Shown here: positions 766-11,176 of the stretch, piece by piece
How the letters are laid out: the number at the start of each line of letters is the position of its first letter
Position numbering within the stretch: the stretch's first letter is position 1
DNA from: an uncultured Acidobacteriota bacterium
GTDB taxonomy: Bacteria > Acidobacteriota > Blastocatellia > RBC074
Direction: 5' to 3'
Length of the DNA: 33,057 bases
Assembly: GCA_903828635.1 (NCBI GenBank)
Contig: CAIKMY010000257.1
Span: 1-33,057 of the forward strand
The notes under the pieces: model-generated
Database searches by the model: none
The model's input: the letters and a program-made list of their open reading frames with translations, nothing else
Told to the model about the DNA's origin: nothing
Translations under genes and position numbers: made by a program

Positions 766-3699
<2,934 letters not shown>

Positions 3700-3950
3700 T
3701 AGTGTGCCGCCATTTGGCCGTCAGTTGGCCATTAGTTAAGTTCGGGTCAGCCAGGGCCGCCACAATGGTCACCTGGCCGCTGATAGTGTACTACCAGAAC
3801 CTGCACAAAAACAGTCTTAAAACTTTCCATTGTCAGTACAAAATAGAAATGTCCCCTGCCGGGCAGTTGCCATCCACAAGGGGGAATTCATCGCCGGCGG
3901 CAGGTATTGATGCCTTGTGTTGACTAAACACGAAGCCGGGAGGTGTTCCA

Positions 3951-3978
3951 TTGAACAAAATGCCGCCGATCGTATACT
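3951..3978 (+). promoter_or_regulatory. Putative sigma70-type promoter for the downstream ATPase: TTGAAC-N16-TATACT
   Basis: -35 TTGAAC (3951-3956) and -10 TATACT (3973-3978), 16-bp spacer, about 65 bp before the ATG, followed by SD aaaggagaga. Confidence 0.5.
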
Positions 3979-4042
3979 CTGCCTGCCTGGATAGTGATTT
4001 TGGCGAACGCGCCGTGATGGCGGTAACAAAAGGAGAGACCTC

Positions 4043-5296
4043 ATGTTGAAAGAACTCCATCTCCACCAATGGAAGAGCTTCGAGACGGCGACTCTCCATA
4101 TCGATCCGCTGACGATCCTCATTGGAACCAACGCCAGCGGCAAGTCGAACACCCTCGATGCGCTGTTGTTTCTGCAACGGGTCGCGTCTGGAGTTGGCAT
4201 CTTTCAGGCCATCAACGGCGATGTCAACCTGCCGCCTATCCGTGGAGGCATGGAGTGGGTGTGCCGCAAGCCAGCGAGGGAGTTTACCCTGAAGATGATT
4301 CTGGGGACAGAATCGGATAACTATGATTATCGCTACGAAGTGAGCGTACAGGTCAATGGCGTCAGGGCGGAGGTTGTCCGCGAAGAGTTGATCCTGCTGA
4401 CATACGGCCCGCGCCGCCAGATCCCGAAAGAGAACCGCCTCTTTTACACCCAGCCACCGGAGGCGAACACACCGGGAATTTCCTGTTATTTTTCCACCGG
4501 CACCAAAGGCCCGGGCAGGAGAATCGATGTCAATCGCTCGCACATCGTGCTGGTGCAAGCGGACGCCCTGAACCTGCGCCGGGAGGTGCAAGAGGGGGTC
4601 AAACAGGTGCTTGGTCAGTTGCAGCAGATTTTTGTGTTTGATCCCATACCGAGCCATATGCGTGATTACTCACCCTTCTCTGAAAGGCTCCAAACGGATG
4701 GCTCCAATATTGCGGGGGTGCTTGCCGCCCTCGATCCTTCACAGAAAGCGGAGGTCGAAAAGACCCTGACCGAATATCTCAAAGCCCTGCCGGAGCGTGA
4801 CATTCAGCGAATCTGGACCGAACCGGTCGGCAAGTTTCAGACCGATGCCATGCTCTATTGTGAAGAGGGATGGTTGGGCACAGTTTCGCATACGGTGGAT
4901 GCCCGCGGCATGTCGGACGGGACGCTGCGCTATCTGGCGATCGTCACCGCCATGTTAACCCGTCAACCTGGCAGCCTGCTGGTCATTGAAGAGGTTGATA
5001 ATGGCCTGCATCCTTCCCGAGCCCATGTGTTGGTGGAGATGTTGCGTACTCTGGGCAGGCAACGAAGTATCGATGTCATCGTCACGACCCACAATCCCGC
5101 ACTGCTCGATGCCGCCGGAGTCCAAATGGTACCCTTCATCACGGTTGCCCACCGGGATGCTGTCACTGGTGCCAGTCTGCTTACCCAGTTGGAAGATGTC
5201 CAGCAGCTTCCCAAATTGATGGCCTCCGGATCACTGGGACGCCTGACGTCGGAGGGACGCATCGAGGCGGCTCTCAAACAGGAGGTGGCCAAATGA
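4043..5296 (+). CDS. AAA/ABC-type ATP-binding protein (AAA_21-like predicted ATPase)
   Basis: Walker A GTNASGKSN near N-terminus; late signature-like region (ARGMSDGTLRYLAIV), Walker B (SLLVIEEVDNGLHPSR) and H-loop-like VIVTTHNPALLD; strong SD. Confidence 0.85.
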   Translation: MLKELHLHQWKSFETATLHIDPLTILIGTNASGKSNTLDALLFLQRVASGVGIFQAINGDVNLPPIRGGMEWVCRKPAREFTLKMILGTESDNYDYRYEVSVQVNGVRAEVVREELILLTYGPRRQIPKENRLFYTQPPEANTPGISCYFSTGTKGPGRRIDVNRSHIVLVQADALNLRREVQEGVKQVLGQLQQIFVFDPIPSHMRDYSPFSERLQTDGSNIAGVLAALDPSQKAEVEKTLTEYLKALPERDIQRIWTEPVGKFQTDAMLYCEEGWLGTVSHTVDARGMSDGTLRYLAIVTAMLTRQPGSLLVIEEVDNGLHPSRAHVLVEMLRTLGRQRSIDVIVTTHNPALLDAAGVQMVPFITVAHRDAVTGASLLTQLEDVQQLPKLMASGSLGRLTSEGRIEAALKQEVAK

Positions 5297-5380
5297 AGAA
5301 GGTGCTGATTCTTGATACGAGCATCCTCTGAATGGATTGTTCCAAGGATAACCCTCCAGCGGGAGAAAGTCTCAGCCTGA
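5293..5380 (+). pseudogene. 5' remnant of a PIN-like partner gene, overlapping the ATPase stop (ATGA) and terminated after 12 codons
   Basis: ATG at 5293 overlaps TGA 5294-5296; reads MKKVLILDTSIL* (PIN-like beta1 with Asp). Another frame continues EWIVPRITLQREKVSA* to 5380, as expected after a small deletion. Confidence 0.5.
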
Positions 5381-5458
5381 CACCCATAAAACTATCCCTT
5401 CTTATGGCAAAGCAGCAGTGTCCGGCCGGCTCCTCGCCTGAGCGCACGTTCCTGACTA

Positions 5459-8251
5459 TCATTCCGCCCTTCCGAGGAGAATGCTGTTAAAAAGCAGCTT
5501 GAAGGTGCCGTGAGGCTGGGCGCGGAAAGTGATCTCCGGTCCGAAGAGGCAGAGCCTGCCTGCTCCGACGCGCGCCTCGGCGGCAGCAACTGCATCTTCG
5601 AGGTGGTGTTCTCCCCAGGCCCAGCCGCTGAGCAGCGGAGCCTTGCCGGCAAACCATGCGACCGGCTTGATGCCACTCAGCGCCGCCTCGGGCCGCAACC
5701 GAAAGGCAGGGCTGTTGTCGAAGAGGAAGTTGACCTTCGTCGCCAGACCATAGGCGATCGGGTGAGTGTTATCGACGCTGGCTTCGAGGATCGATCCGGG
5801 GACATAGAATTTGTCACGCGGCAGGGGACGCTCGCCGCCACTGGCGAGTTTCTCGACGAGGGCATTGCCCATTGGCAGGCCGAGATGATACCCAAGGGCA
5901 GTCGAGCTGCCGATGGTGATGACAGAGCCGCCGGCTTCAAGGAAGGCTTTGAGCTGCGGGACGGTGGTGCTGATGGTAACATTGCCGAGTCGATCGCGGA
6001 ATTCGGCCGGTATCGAGTCATCGCGCTCTCCGGCACGCCCATCGCGTGCGGGGATTGCGCCGCCGACGAAGATCAGCACGTCGAATTGCGAGGCAAGATC
6101 GCCGGCATCGAGCCTCTGCGGATAGACTACGGTGAAGGGAAATTCGAACTGTTCCAGCAGCCAGCGCGTCCAGCCCGAGGGCATCGACCCGCCATAACGA
6201 TCCCAGAGGCCAACGCGCACCGGCCTGATGCGCAGTGTCGCGACACCGGGCGGTGTCGCGATCGGATCAAATTTGAGCCCGAGCTCACCGGCGATCTTTT
6301 CGACGCGCTCAACTGTTCCGGTGCCATTGGCCACCCAGATCGTTCCTGCCGGATAGTGCCGCTCACCAATGGTCAGCGGACTCTTCAGCCAGCGAACCTC
6401 ATCGCCTGCCCGGAGCAGCCGGTTGGTGGCGATGAAGGAGTCATTGACCTCATGGCTCAGCAGGAATCCGGCCGTGCCGGCTGGTGCCGTCACCCTGGCA
6501 GCATCGAGTCGCGCCATCCCGGTGATCTTTTCAAAGGGTCCGTCGAAACCATCGAGCACCCGGTCAAAACTGACTCCCATCTGCAGCGCCAGCGTCCAGC
6601 CGGCATTGTCGTATGGCGGAATCGGCGGTCCTCCGGGATACTGCAGGTCATTGGGATGATCCTGTGGTTCGAACATGTCAAGAATGTGCGCACGAAAGGC
6701 CTGCGCTGTCTTCACCACATAGGATCCGGCCGGATAGCTTCGCCCGGCGACGGTGAAATCGGCTGTGGCGCGGTGAACGGCAATGCCGTTTTTGATCAGC
6801 GCGTTGACGAATTTCGTCACGGTCGAAAAATCGGGCTGATTCGCCGGCAGGATATAGCCGCGCGCATCGCGCCACTCCGGTCGGCGCAGCATCTCGTAAT
6901 ATTTCAGTGGTACGCTCTGGCCGCCTCCGGCGAGGGCAGGGATGTCGATCTCACCGGGCTCTGATCGATCACCATTACCGCGCCGCTCCTTCTGGTAGGT
7001 GGCCTGCACCTCGGCGAGCCGGCGTGGATAGGGCGTCCAGTTATCACGACTGCCGCGCTCGATCGCATTGCGACCCATCCTGAAAATATTCATCAGGAAA
7101 TCTTCGCGATTCTTTGTCGCGACATCGAACACCGCGCGGTTTGCCGTCAGCGAGTACTCGATCGATTGCCGGAAATGCCATTTCTGTGGAGCAATCGGTG
7201 CTGGCAGATTCCCCTGAGGCAGATAACGATTGAAGAGAAACGGGATCTCCATCGGTGTCGGATGGCCAATCGTCTCCGTCAGCAGCCCGATCATGTTGTG
7301 GAAATAGACCGTTGTGCGCAGCCCGCCGTTCCACCATGTCGAGTAGCCGGCTCCGGTGCGCGTCGTCGCTCCCGGCTTGTTCTCGGCAACAAAGCGGTGA
7401 TGCATTGCCGCTCCGACCACATCCAGCCCGGTGACCACCAGCGGGTCATAGAGATAGTTGAATGGATCACGGAATGGCGGTGCAAAGAGCACTGTCCCCG
7501 CCGGCCCCGTCTGGTGATGATTGTAGACAATCTGCGGAAACCATTCGTGATAGAAGACCCGGTTGATTGCCTCCGATTCCGGCTGTGATGAAAGGTAAAA
7601 GTCACGGTTATTGTCGTGACCGATATACTTCTGATAAAGGCGCGGGATGTTCGAATAGCTGCGCTTCGTCTTTTCAGGCTCGCGCATATACCAGTTCGAG
7701 ACCAGCTCCATGCCATCCGGGTTGACGAGGCACCCGAGGATAATCGTCTCGTCAAGGAAGCGGCGCGTCTCCTCATCGTTGAGGCTGACCATCTGCCAGA
7801 TCGTCTCGATCAGTTGCTGCGCACCGAGCGTCTCGGTCGCATGCAGCCCGCCATCGATCCAGACCACCGCCTTGCCCTCGCGAGCCAGCGCGCGCGCCTG
7901 CTCCTCATTCAGACCTTCCGCCAGCGCCAGCCGCCGCGAAATCTCACGGTAGCGATCCAGCTTCCGGTGATTTGCCGCCGAGGTGATGATCGCCAGATAC
8001 ATCGTTCGCCCCTCGGCTGATCGCCCCATCTCAACCACCTTCAGTCGATCTGATTCGCGGTCGAGGACCTTGAGATAGGCCTCGTACTGCGTGTAATTGA
8101 CCAACTGGTAGTCGTCGCCAATCGCGAAGCCGAACTGCTCGCGCGGGCTCGTCAGCTTGGTCTGAGCCGAGGCGATCGACAGTGTGCTGACCAGACAAAG
8201 ACCAATCAGCAGGGAGCGGAAGAGTTGCGGGAGACTGGAAATATGGGACAT
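5459..8251 (-). CDS. Secreted M14-family zinc carboxypeptidase-like protein
   Basis: Signal peptide (LLIGLCLVSTLSIASAQ); M14-like architecture with zinc HxxE in WIDGGLHATETLGAQQ; downstream YNHHQTGPAGT. Confidence 0.85.
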   Translation of the reverse strand: MSHISSLPQLFRSLLIGLCLVSTLSIASAQTKLTSPREQFGFAIGDDYQLVNYTQYEAYLKVLDRESDRLKVVEMGRSAEGRTMYLAIITSAANHRKLDRYREISRRLALAEGLNEEQARALAREGKAVVWIDGGLHATETLGAQQLIETIWQMVSLNDEETRRFLDETIILGCLVNPDGMELVSNWYMREPEKTKRSYSNIPRLYQKYIGHDNNRDFYLSSQPESEAINRVFYHEWFPQIVYNHHQTGPAGTVLFAPPFRDPFNYLYDPLVVTGLDVVGAAMHHRFVAENKPGATTRTGAGYSTWWNGGLRTTVYFHNMIGLLTETIGHPTPMEIPFLFNRYLPQGNLPAPIAPQKWHFRQSIEYSLTANRAVFDVATKNREDFLMNIFRMGRNAIERGSRDNWTPYPRRLAEVQATYQKERRGNGDRSEPGEIDIPALAGGGQSVPLKYYEMLRRPEWRDARGYILPANQPDFSTVTKFVNALIKNGIAVHRATADFTVAGRSYPAGSYVVKTAQAFRAHILDMFEPQDHPNDLQYPGGPPIPPYDNAGWTLALQMGVSFDRVLDGFDGPFEKITGMARLDAARVTAPAGTAGFLLSHEVNDSFIATNRLLRAGDEVRWLKSPLTIGERHYPAGTIWVANGTGTVERVEKIAGELGLKFDPIATPPGVATLRIRPVRVGLWDRYGGSMPSGWTRWLLEQFEFPFTVVYPQRLDAGDLASQFDVLIFVGGAIPARDGRAGERDDSIPAEFRDRLGNVTISTTVPQLKAFLEAGGSVITIGSSTALGYHLGLPMGNALVEKLASGGERPLPRDKFYVPGSILEASVDNTHPIAYGLATKVNFLFDNSPAFRLRPEAALSGIKPVAWFAGKAPLLSGWAWGEHHLEDAVAAAEARVGAGRLCLFGPEITFRAQPHGTFKLLFNSILLGRAE

Positions 8252-8410: not shown

Positions 8411-11176
8411 CTACCTGACGCTGATGGTTACCTCGTTGGAGCGGGTGACGCTGCCCTCACCATTGCGAACCTTGATGGTGATGGTCAGGGTACCGGAGGA
8501 GATGTTCGCCGGAAGCTCAACGTTGAACTGGTCAAGTCCGGAGAAACCAGGTGCCGGACCGGCATAGCCCACATTGAGCGTGGTGGTGCCGATGCTGGCG
8601 TCAACCAGTTCGGCGACTCCATTGGCCGGATTGCCATCGAGATCCTCGAGTCCGCGGAGACCGGTGCCGTAAAGCACAAGGAAGAGCCGGTCACCGCTCT
8701 GCCGGGTGATCGTTACCGGCAGGATCCTGCTGGTGGCGCTGTCGTAGCGGGCGAGCGGCTCGTAGCTGGTCTGGCCGCTGGCTTTGACACGCAGCAGCTG
8801 ACCGGCCGGGTTGCCCTTGCCGGAGCCATCAGCGGTGAAGAGGCTCGGCGCGGCGGCCGAGATCTCGATCGTCCCCTGGGCCACAGCCTGACCGTCACGC
8901 ATGACCGTGACCATTGCCGTTCCCGGCAGTACTTCATCCGGGACAAGGTAGTTGATCTGCGTCGGCGAGGCGAAGAAGAGTCCTGCCGCACGCCCGTCGA
9001 CCATCACTGAGACTCCGCCAAGAGTGGTTGGCAGCGGCTGGATATTGGCCGATGCCGTCGTCGTCGTCAGGTTGGAGCCAAAGGCGGCAATGATCGAGGA
9101 GGATGAATTTGATGTCAGGTAGCTGCCGGCATTGACCGAGGCCAGCGGCTGGAACTGCATGAATGTCGCACCGGTCGATCCGGCTTCAACCTCGATGAAC
9201 TTCGCGTCAACCTCACCACCGGGTAATTCGGCACCGACCACCTCGGCGAGTGCTCCAACCTCGATCCGGCTCCGCTGGCGATCGATCAGCGTCGAGCGGC
9301 TGACATTGACCTTGCGGCCATTGTCGAAGACCCACTGGCCGATGAAATTGGCCGTCTCCGGCAGATCGCTCACCCTGGCGATGAACTCGATGATGCTCAG
9401 ATCGTTGATGGGTGCTGTCACGGGTGGAGTCGGTCGTACTGAGATTGAGAGTGCCGTCACCACACCGTCGGCAAAGAGATATCCCTTGACCTCGACGAAG
9501 GCTCCAACCTTGATCTCGCCGCGCTGTGTCTCGGTCTTCGTCGCCTCATTGACGTTGACCTTGCGACTGTTTTTGCCGATCGTCCACTCACCCGGATACT
9601 TCCCGGCGACGGCGGCTGGCAGAGTTTTGATGTCACCATAAAAATTGATGAAGCCGATGGCTCCAGCCGGTGCGTCCTTATCGCGCTCGACCTGAATGGC
9701 GAAGGCGTCAACACCGCCATCGGTCCGCTGGTTACCCTCGACCTGAACATAGGCGCCAACCTGCGGAGTGCCGTGCTCACGGACGATGCGCGTCCGTGAA
9801 CTGACCGTCACCGGCCGTCCGCTGACGACCCACGTGCCAACGAGGGTGCTGCCGTTCGGCAGGGTCTCGATCGTGCCATAGAACCTGGTATAGCTGATTG
9901 ATCCACCGGTGCCGGCTCTGATTTCGATCTCCTTTGCGAGGATCGACCCGTCAGCCTGGATGATTCCCTCAACCTCGGCGATTGCACCAACTTTGGCACT
10001 GGCATTGCCCTGGTCAATCTTCGTCTCGGCAACGACCCTGACGGTGCGCTCGCCAACTTTCCAGGTGCCGATCAGGCTCGGAGTGCTTCCGCTGGTTGAC
10101 GTTGGTTCGATGCTCCTGATCTCACCAGCGAAACGCACGTACCCTGGTGTCGGCTCGGCGCCAATGACCGCGATCGAGGTCGCGATGACCGCACCCGTCT
10201 GGTCGGTTGTTCCCCGAACTTCGACCTGAGCACCAACCACCAGCTTGCTCTTGTCGCCATCGATCTTCGTCTCTGCCGAGACCTTGATCGTTCGGCCACT
10301 CACCTTCCAGTCACCAATGAAATTGCTGGTCGAGGGCAGCGTCTCGATCGTGCCGCGCAGCATTACCGGCAGTGTCGGAACCTGAATCTCGGCCTTGACC
10401 TCGATCCTTGTCGCGGCAAACTTGCCACCGGAGGTCAGGCTGCCGGTCACCTCAACCAGTGATCCGATCATGGCCTTCGCCCTCTGCTCATCAATCACCG
10501 TCTCGTTGGCAACCAGCACCGTGCGGCCGCTGATGACCCACTCTCCCGGCTTGATCGGGTTGGGCAGCTTTTCGACCTTGCCCACAATCCTGATCGTTGT
10601 CGGCGGCCCGAACTCCGGCAGGATGCCGACACTCAGCGCGGTGAGCGAATTGTCCTGCTCGATTCGCGCGATCACTGCGGCATTGGCACCGACTGCCGGG
10701 GCGCCAAGTTTCTGGTCGATCTTTGTCATGTCGTTGACATTGACGGTCCGGGTGCCGATCTTCCACGGGCCGATCCGGCCCGGTGTGCTCGGCAACTCCT
10801 CGATCCGTCCGACAAAGTTGAGCTGCGCGGCACTGACCGGCGCATACTTGATCTCAATTTTAGTGGCGTTGAAGACTCCACTTGACTGCCTTGTCCCACT
10901 GGCCTCGACCCAGGCCCCAACCTGGGGTTTGCCCTCGATCTTCGTCGAAGCGGTAACGCTGACCTTGACCTGTGCAATTGTCCACTCGCCGATCCATCCC
11001 TGGGTTGATGGCAGGCTGACGATCCCGCCGGCAATCTTTGACTCGGGGGCGCTGCCACTCTGAGCTGCGGCCCTCTCGCCCGGAGGGAATGTGGCCAGCG
11101 AGAGAATCATCACCACCACTGCCATCACGAGCGATCTCCGTCGTGCCGGAACCGATGCTGAAAGACTGTTATTCAT
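8411..11176 (-). CDS. Secreted protein with eight DUF5666-like repeats and TIGR03437-type C-terminal domain
   Basis: N-terminal hydrophobic signal; eight repeats of the type G.I..LP....IG.W.V.GRTV.V...T.ID.....VGA.VEV.G....G...A..IEV; C-terminal SVNAGSY...PLPTTLGGVSVMVDGRAAGLFFASPTQINYLVP...FLVLYGTGLRG...GLDQFNVELP. Confidence 0.85.
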   Translation of the reverse strand: MNNSLSASVPARRRSLVMAVVVMILSLATFPPGERAAAQSGSAPESKIAGGIVSLPSTQGWIGEWTIAQVKVSVTASTKIEGKPQVGAWVEASGTRQSSGVFNATKIEIKYAPVSAAQLNFVGRIEELPSTPGRIGPWKIGTRTVNVNDMTKIDQKLGAPAVGANAAVIARIEQDNSLTALSVGILPEFGPPTTIRIVGKVEKLPNPIKPGEWVISGRTVLVANETVIDEQRAKAMIGSLVEVTGSLTSGGKFAATRIEVKAEIQVPTLPVMLRGTIETLPSTSNFIGDWKVSGRTIKVSAETKIDGDKSKLVVGAQVEVRGTTDQTGAVIATSIAVIGAEPTPGYVRFAGEIRSIEPTSTSGSTPSLIGTWKVGERTVRVVAETKIDQGNASAKVGAIAEVEGIIQADGSILAKEIEIRAGTGGSISYTRFYGTIETLPNGSTLVGTWVVSGRPVTVSSRTRIVREHGTPQVGAYVQVEGNQRTDGGVDAFAIQVERDKDAPAGAIGFINFYGDIKTLPAAVAGKYPGEWTIGKNSRKVNVNEATKTETQRGEIKVGAFVEVKGYLFADGVVTALSISVRPTPPVTAPINDLSIIEFIARVSDLPETANFIGQWVFDNGRKVNVSRSTLIDRQRSRIEVGALAEVVGAELPGGEVDAKFIEVEAGSTGATFMQFQPLASVNAGSYLTSNSSSSIIAAFGSNLTTTTASANIQPLPTTLGGVSVMVDGRAAGLFFASPTQINYLVPDEVLPGTAMVTVMRDGQAVAQGTIEISAAAPSLFTADGSGKGNPAGQLLRVKASGQTSYEPLARYDSATSRILPVTITRQSGDRLFLVLYGTGLRGLEDLDGNPANGVAELVDASIGTTTLNVGYAGPAPGFSGLDQFNVELPANISSGTLTITIKVRNGEGSVTRSNEVTISVR

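Follow-up and report, generated by a model that had tools for sequence, protein, structure and literature searches.

A PDC-M07-type ATPase gene followed by a truncated PIN-like partner gene in an uncultured Acidobacteriota bacterium

The locus described here raises the question of why an intact ATPase gene should be followed immediately by the first dozen codons of a second gene and then by nothing that resembles the rest of it. It lies in a stretch of 33,057 nucleotides (the window) of contig CAIKMY010000257.1 from an uncultured Acidobacteriota bacterium, and a first-pass annotation made from the letters of this DNA had taken it for the relic of a two-gene, possibly defence, module. We put a probability of roughly 70% on the following reading: the ATPase is what is left at this locus of a PDC-M07 module that was acquired horizontally, a module in which a PtuA-like ATPase would gate a PIN ribonuclease and which has become inactive through truncation of its effector gene. 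The PDC-M07 family is already known, by number only, and the copy in the window is a degraded member of it.

The ATPase gene occupies positions 4043-5296 on the forward strand and is open over 417 codons, as the first-pass annotation had stated. The good Shine-Dalgarno sequence claimed for it is present (AAGGAGAG at 4030-4037, forward strand); the good promoter of its own is not borne out, since the single sigma-70-like match upstream (3951-3978, forward strand) is weak, agrees at 9 of 12 positions and is no better than chance (1.1 such matches expected). Four motifs of an ABC ATPase are intact in the reading frame, i.e., Walker A (GTNASGKS, 4124-4147, forward strand; G28, N30, G33, K34 and S35 invariant), the signature SDG (S291-G293; S291, D292 and G293 invariant) upstream of Walker B, Walker B itself (LLVIEE, 4976-4993, forward strand; E316 and D319 invariant), and the invariant H-loop residue H350 downstream of it. 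Forty relatives define 102 columns with at least 95% conservation, and the ATPase of the window agrees at every one. The protein belongs to Pfam AAA_21, and its best PADLOC profile by a wide margin is PDC-M07A (E=3.5e-169, residues 1-414); HEC-01A, AriA (E=5.8e-32) and others follow far behind. The top fold matches of its AlphaFold2 model (pLDDT 91.7) were PtuA of Septu and PtuA of retron Ec78/Eco7, with Rad50/SMC heads also found. We therefore describe it as an SMC/ABC ATPase of the PDC-M07A type.

The nature of the second gene was read from the relatives of the ATPase. Eighty of these, from many phyla, were fetched in a main search anchored on the ATPase, and 70 of them are followed directly by an intact gene of about 170 codons. 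The encoded protein begins M(K/R)KVLI(I/L)DTSILC in these 70, and its start usually overlaps the ATPase stop by 4 or 8 nt, mostly by 4 nt. The homologues are thus not solitary, which would have refuted the first-pass annotation, and the partner motif DTSxLC expected there does stand at the beginning of the intact partner genes. The downstream gene of the relatives matches PDC-M07B (E=1.9e-50); it gave no Pfam match and no sequence match in the PDB. Its AlphaFold2 model (pLDDT 91) has PIN topology, and the leading Foldseek hits are PIN domains (VapC, SMG6/EST1A), which are weak matches (best E 0.035, TM to target at most 0.65). All 51 partner sequences compared share D8, E59, D126 and D149, which follow one another as is expected of the PIN acidic quartet. 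Its topology, the agreement among the hits and these four acidic residues lead to the prediction that the partner has a PIN/VapC-like ribonuclease fold, and the earlier description of a PIN-like partner agrees with this predicted domain. When the search was anchored on the partner instead, 11 cases were obtained (7 plasmids, 2 genomes of the window's phylum, 1 virus contig and 1 Limnohabitans genome), none of them without the ATPase; one case that has no annotated ATPase (H7) was counted as ATPase-bearing on the ground that it matches as H6 does. Eleven cases are too few to establish a one-sided loss. The phage GenBank records searched contained no match to the partner, and the E. coli genomes searched contained no match to a related pair.

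In the window, the stop of the ATPase gene overlaps the start of the partner as ATGA at 5293, the same arrangement as in most relatives, and the PIN-like start runs for 12 codons (MKKVLILDTSIL, 5293-5331 with the stop, forward strand) to a TGA at 5329-5331, both as first described. In a base-by-base comparison with the 15 closest partner genes, every letter of the first 38 nt (5293-5330) is also seen at the same place in these genes, so that the remnant is not a chance resemblance, and from nt 39 the agreement collapses. The sequence that follows (5331-5476) is no more similar to partner genes than shuffled sequence is, has no similarity to any of the fetched flanks of the module, and is present in a single copy in the genome. 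Homology to the relatives resumes at 5477 with the M14 gene, at most 180 bp after the ATPase stop, whereas a complete partner gene takes 513 bp, and a search of all contigs found no partner gene elsewhere in the genome. With a clean break at nt 38 and 180 bp in place of a 513-bp gene, the partner gene is, as judged from its sequence, truncated by deletion or recombination and not frameshifted. The effector loss beside an open ATPase frame proposed in the first-pass annotation therefore stands, with 38 nt of the partner left, while the repair suggested there, i.e., restoring two bases to read DTSILCEWIVP, fails. Partner similarity ends at nt 38, and the downstream sequence scores 8.9 in local alignment to the partner profile against a shuffle mean of 8.4, with 29% of shuffles scoring as high; the apparent continuation CEWIVP is a coincidence. 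Two further candidates were also rejected: an internal deletion fusing the partner start to its C-terminus (VPR...) has no DNA or protein support, and a repeat-mediated deletion finds no matching repeats at the breakpoint.

A role for the intact pair is suggested by the loci in which it is found. In one relative (L009) the pair lies between a PglX-like gene (our own reading of a 1174-aa methyltransferase) and a PglZ gene with all junctions overlapping; in another (L007) it precedes a HEC-06/Orf5 gene and PglZ; in two (L061 and L065) it precedes HsdS; and in L054 the ATPase gene is placed between HsdS and HsdR (HsdM-HsdS-ATPase-HsdR). An intact PDC-M07 pair is also present in a viral contig (L135:2730-4507) beside antirepressor-like and Arc-like genes, both labels being our own readings, and a diverged pair is carried on a 9-kb mobilisable plasmid. 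At L009:983-9039, HEC-02B was also observed upstream of the PglX-like gene, the PDC-M07 pair and PglZ. In a broad flank scan most neighbours were ordinary, and many relatives have housekeeping genes around them and lie outside defence islands; the association with defence loci (BREX, type I restriction-modification, prophage) is seen in relatives only. That the pair is embedded in BREX operons, in type I restriction operons and in a prophage supports a defence role, in keeping with the suspicion of a defence module, and we regard the intact pair as a candidate defence system that is probably anti-phage. PADLOC PDC systems are "guilt-by-embedding" candidates, mostly untested (PMC12988326), and our literature search found no mention of or experiment on PDC-M07.

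The comparison with known systems places the locus closest to PDC-M07 of PADLOC-DB (PDC-M07A plus PDC-M07B), with which it shares the ATPase family and the position, overlap and starting motif of the partner; it differs in that only 12 codons of PDC-M07B are kept and the partner is not intact. The PtuAB proteins of Septu and of retron Ec78 likewise pair an SMC-like ATPase lacking a long coiled coil with a following nuclease gene, and PtuA is the best fold match, but PtuB is an HNH protein, whereas the partner here models as PIN, and the sequence match to PtuA is weak (about 13-16% identity; PtuA NCBIfam score of 30 against a cut-off of 500). PARIS (AriA/AriB) and AbiL/RloAB are also two-gene systems with an AAA_21-type ATPase and a nuclease effector; their effectors are TOPRIM/OLD-like, whereas the partner here models as PIN-like and is thus no TOPRIM AriB. 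The VapBC type II toxin-antitoxin systems share the PIN fold of the toxin and differ in their antitoxin, which is small and DNA-binding, while the putative regulator here is a 417-aa ATPase that is encoded first. In the AarT:AAA pair of A. guerrae (PMC10440598), an AAA ATPase antitoxin accompanies an RNase-like toxin, a likeness by description only. These last two systems bear on the possibility that the pair is a plain toxin-antitoxin or a plasmid or prophage stabilisation pair and not an anti-phage system, which we consider unlikely: the VapC-like PIN fold, the presence of pairs on a mobilisable plasmid of 9 kb as well as in a prophage region, and the service of AAA ATPases as antitoxins (PMC10440598) would all fit, but the likeness of the ATPase to PtuA and the embedding of the pair, with overlapping genes, in BREX and type I restriction operons argue for defence.

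The window is not alone in having lost the effector. The partner is broken in six relatives (by a nonsense change in L006, by being cut short in L010, by a frameshift in L024 and by a deletion in L028, and disrupted in L042 and L053) and gone in four (L036, L054, L071 and L074). Counting the window, the partner is lost and the ATPase kept at 11 of 81 loci, which requires ten separate changes on the ATPase tree, although single-base breaks may be errors in several of these loci, which come from draft metagenome contigs. The effector has been lost about ten times independently while the ATPase stays. Whole genomes were also searched: those of L054, L036, L074 and the window yielded no partner, and that of L071 only a distant partner beside its own ATPase. 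The genome of Limnohabitans sp. DM1, which also carries an orphan PDC-M07 ATPase, contains a distant pair of an ATPase (464 aa) and a PIN-like protein (200 aa) whose genes overlap (L153:1480-3431).

Such recurrence invites the thought that the orphan ATPase of the window is still functional and selected, either as an immunity protein that neutralises the PIN toxin when a new copy of the module comes in, or as a part that another system has borrowed. Speaking for this are the ten tree changes that led to an orphan state with an intact ATPase and the finding that conserved sites have changed no more in orphans than in paired ATPases (mean 1.4 against 1.9). In addition, two Limnohabitans orphans with the same junction (L054 and L071), which sit in a type I restriction operon, are separated by 40 synonymous and 4 nonsynonymous changes (dN/dS 0.030). 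Against this, the orphans are scattered tips of the tree, mostly with partner debris, as recent losses would give. In L054 (3970-6475), three direct repeats of about 228 nt bracket one truncated and one full ATPase copy between HsdS and HsdR of a type I restriction operon. Recombination between these repeats could have deleted the partner, and identical deletions could thus have arisen twice in Limnohabitans. Comparisons of the window's ATPase with most relatives are saturated in dS (the two that were computable gave 1.8-3.0), so pairwise dN/dS is no measure of selection since the loss; dN is even among the window, L004 and L030, and its branch is therefore not fast. We consider continued function of this orphan quite improbable, and the wider proposal, that orphan PDC-M07 ATPases are a selected end state, whether as antitoxin or immunity factors against incoming modules or as proteins co-opted by neighbouring restriction systems, is a speculative one with little probability.

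The left-over ATPase appears to have come from elsewhere. Its module sits between a penicillin-binding protein (PBP) gene and an M14 peptidase gene, and the neighbour genes in the window are housekeeping genes. In a genome of the same genus (G001) the gap between these two genes holds a TPR gene (L132:2090-3586) and lacks an ATPase, the GC content dips over 3600-5550 (0.52-0.57 in the insert against 0.60-0.65), and in the tree the ATPase of the window groups, without resolution, among those of Cloacimonadota, Gammaproteobacteria and Chlorobi. The locus without ATPase, the lower GC of the insert and the tree placement indicate horizontal acquisition of the module. Close ATPases are rare in the phylum of the window (5 of 396 genomes at E<=1e-30), and the partner is present in 2. 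Elsewhere in the window, a large protein with repeated DUF5666 domains is encoded on the minus strand at 8411-11176. That the truncation is an assembly mis-join and the partner intact in the organism is very improbable: the genome is a fragmented draft of 482 contigs and the breakpoint is read from this assembly, but the module and its two flanking genes, M14 and PBP, share one contig, and these two genes are also found as neighbours in the genome of the same genus, so that a mis-join would need a small internal deletion, no other contig carries the partner, and the 3' segment is single copy.

The family assignment, the overlapping gene pair, the truncation, the predicted fold and the defence context of the relatives were obtained here, and from the parallels with Septu, PARIS, AbiL and RNase-like or TOPRIM toxins that are reported to be neutralised by AAA ATPases (PMC10440598) we infer how an intact module would sense infection, inhibit its effector and reach an RNA target. 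In such a module of two overlapping genes, the PtuA-like SMC/ABC ATPase most likely either keeps the PIN-fold ribonuclease, a protein of about 170 aa, in an inactive state or bears it as part of a complex. Upon sensing infection the ATPase would release or activate the PIN protein, and the freed protein would cut RNA (tRNA or mRNA, by analogy with VapC), so that phage growth would stop. PIN ribonucleases that have no classical antitoxin do act in defence, as in DS-3 and DS-5 (PMC13092281). With its effector gene cut after 38 nt by deletion or recombination, the module in the window could not work in this way, and with the effector gone it is most likely inactive in its host.

For the family, a PADLOC candidate so far listed only by number gains a concrete anatomy, i.e., a PtuA-like ATPase with a predicted PIN ribonuclease. 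The repeated loss of the effector while the ATPase stays makes it testable which of the two genes bears the cost, and whether orphan ATPases may be immunity factors.
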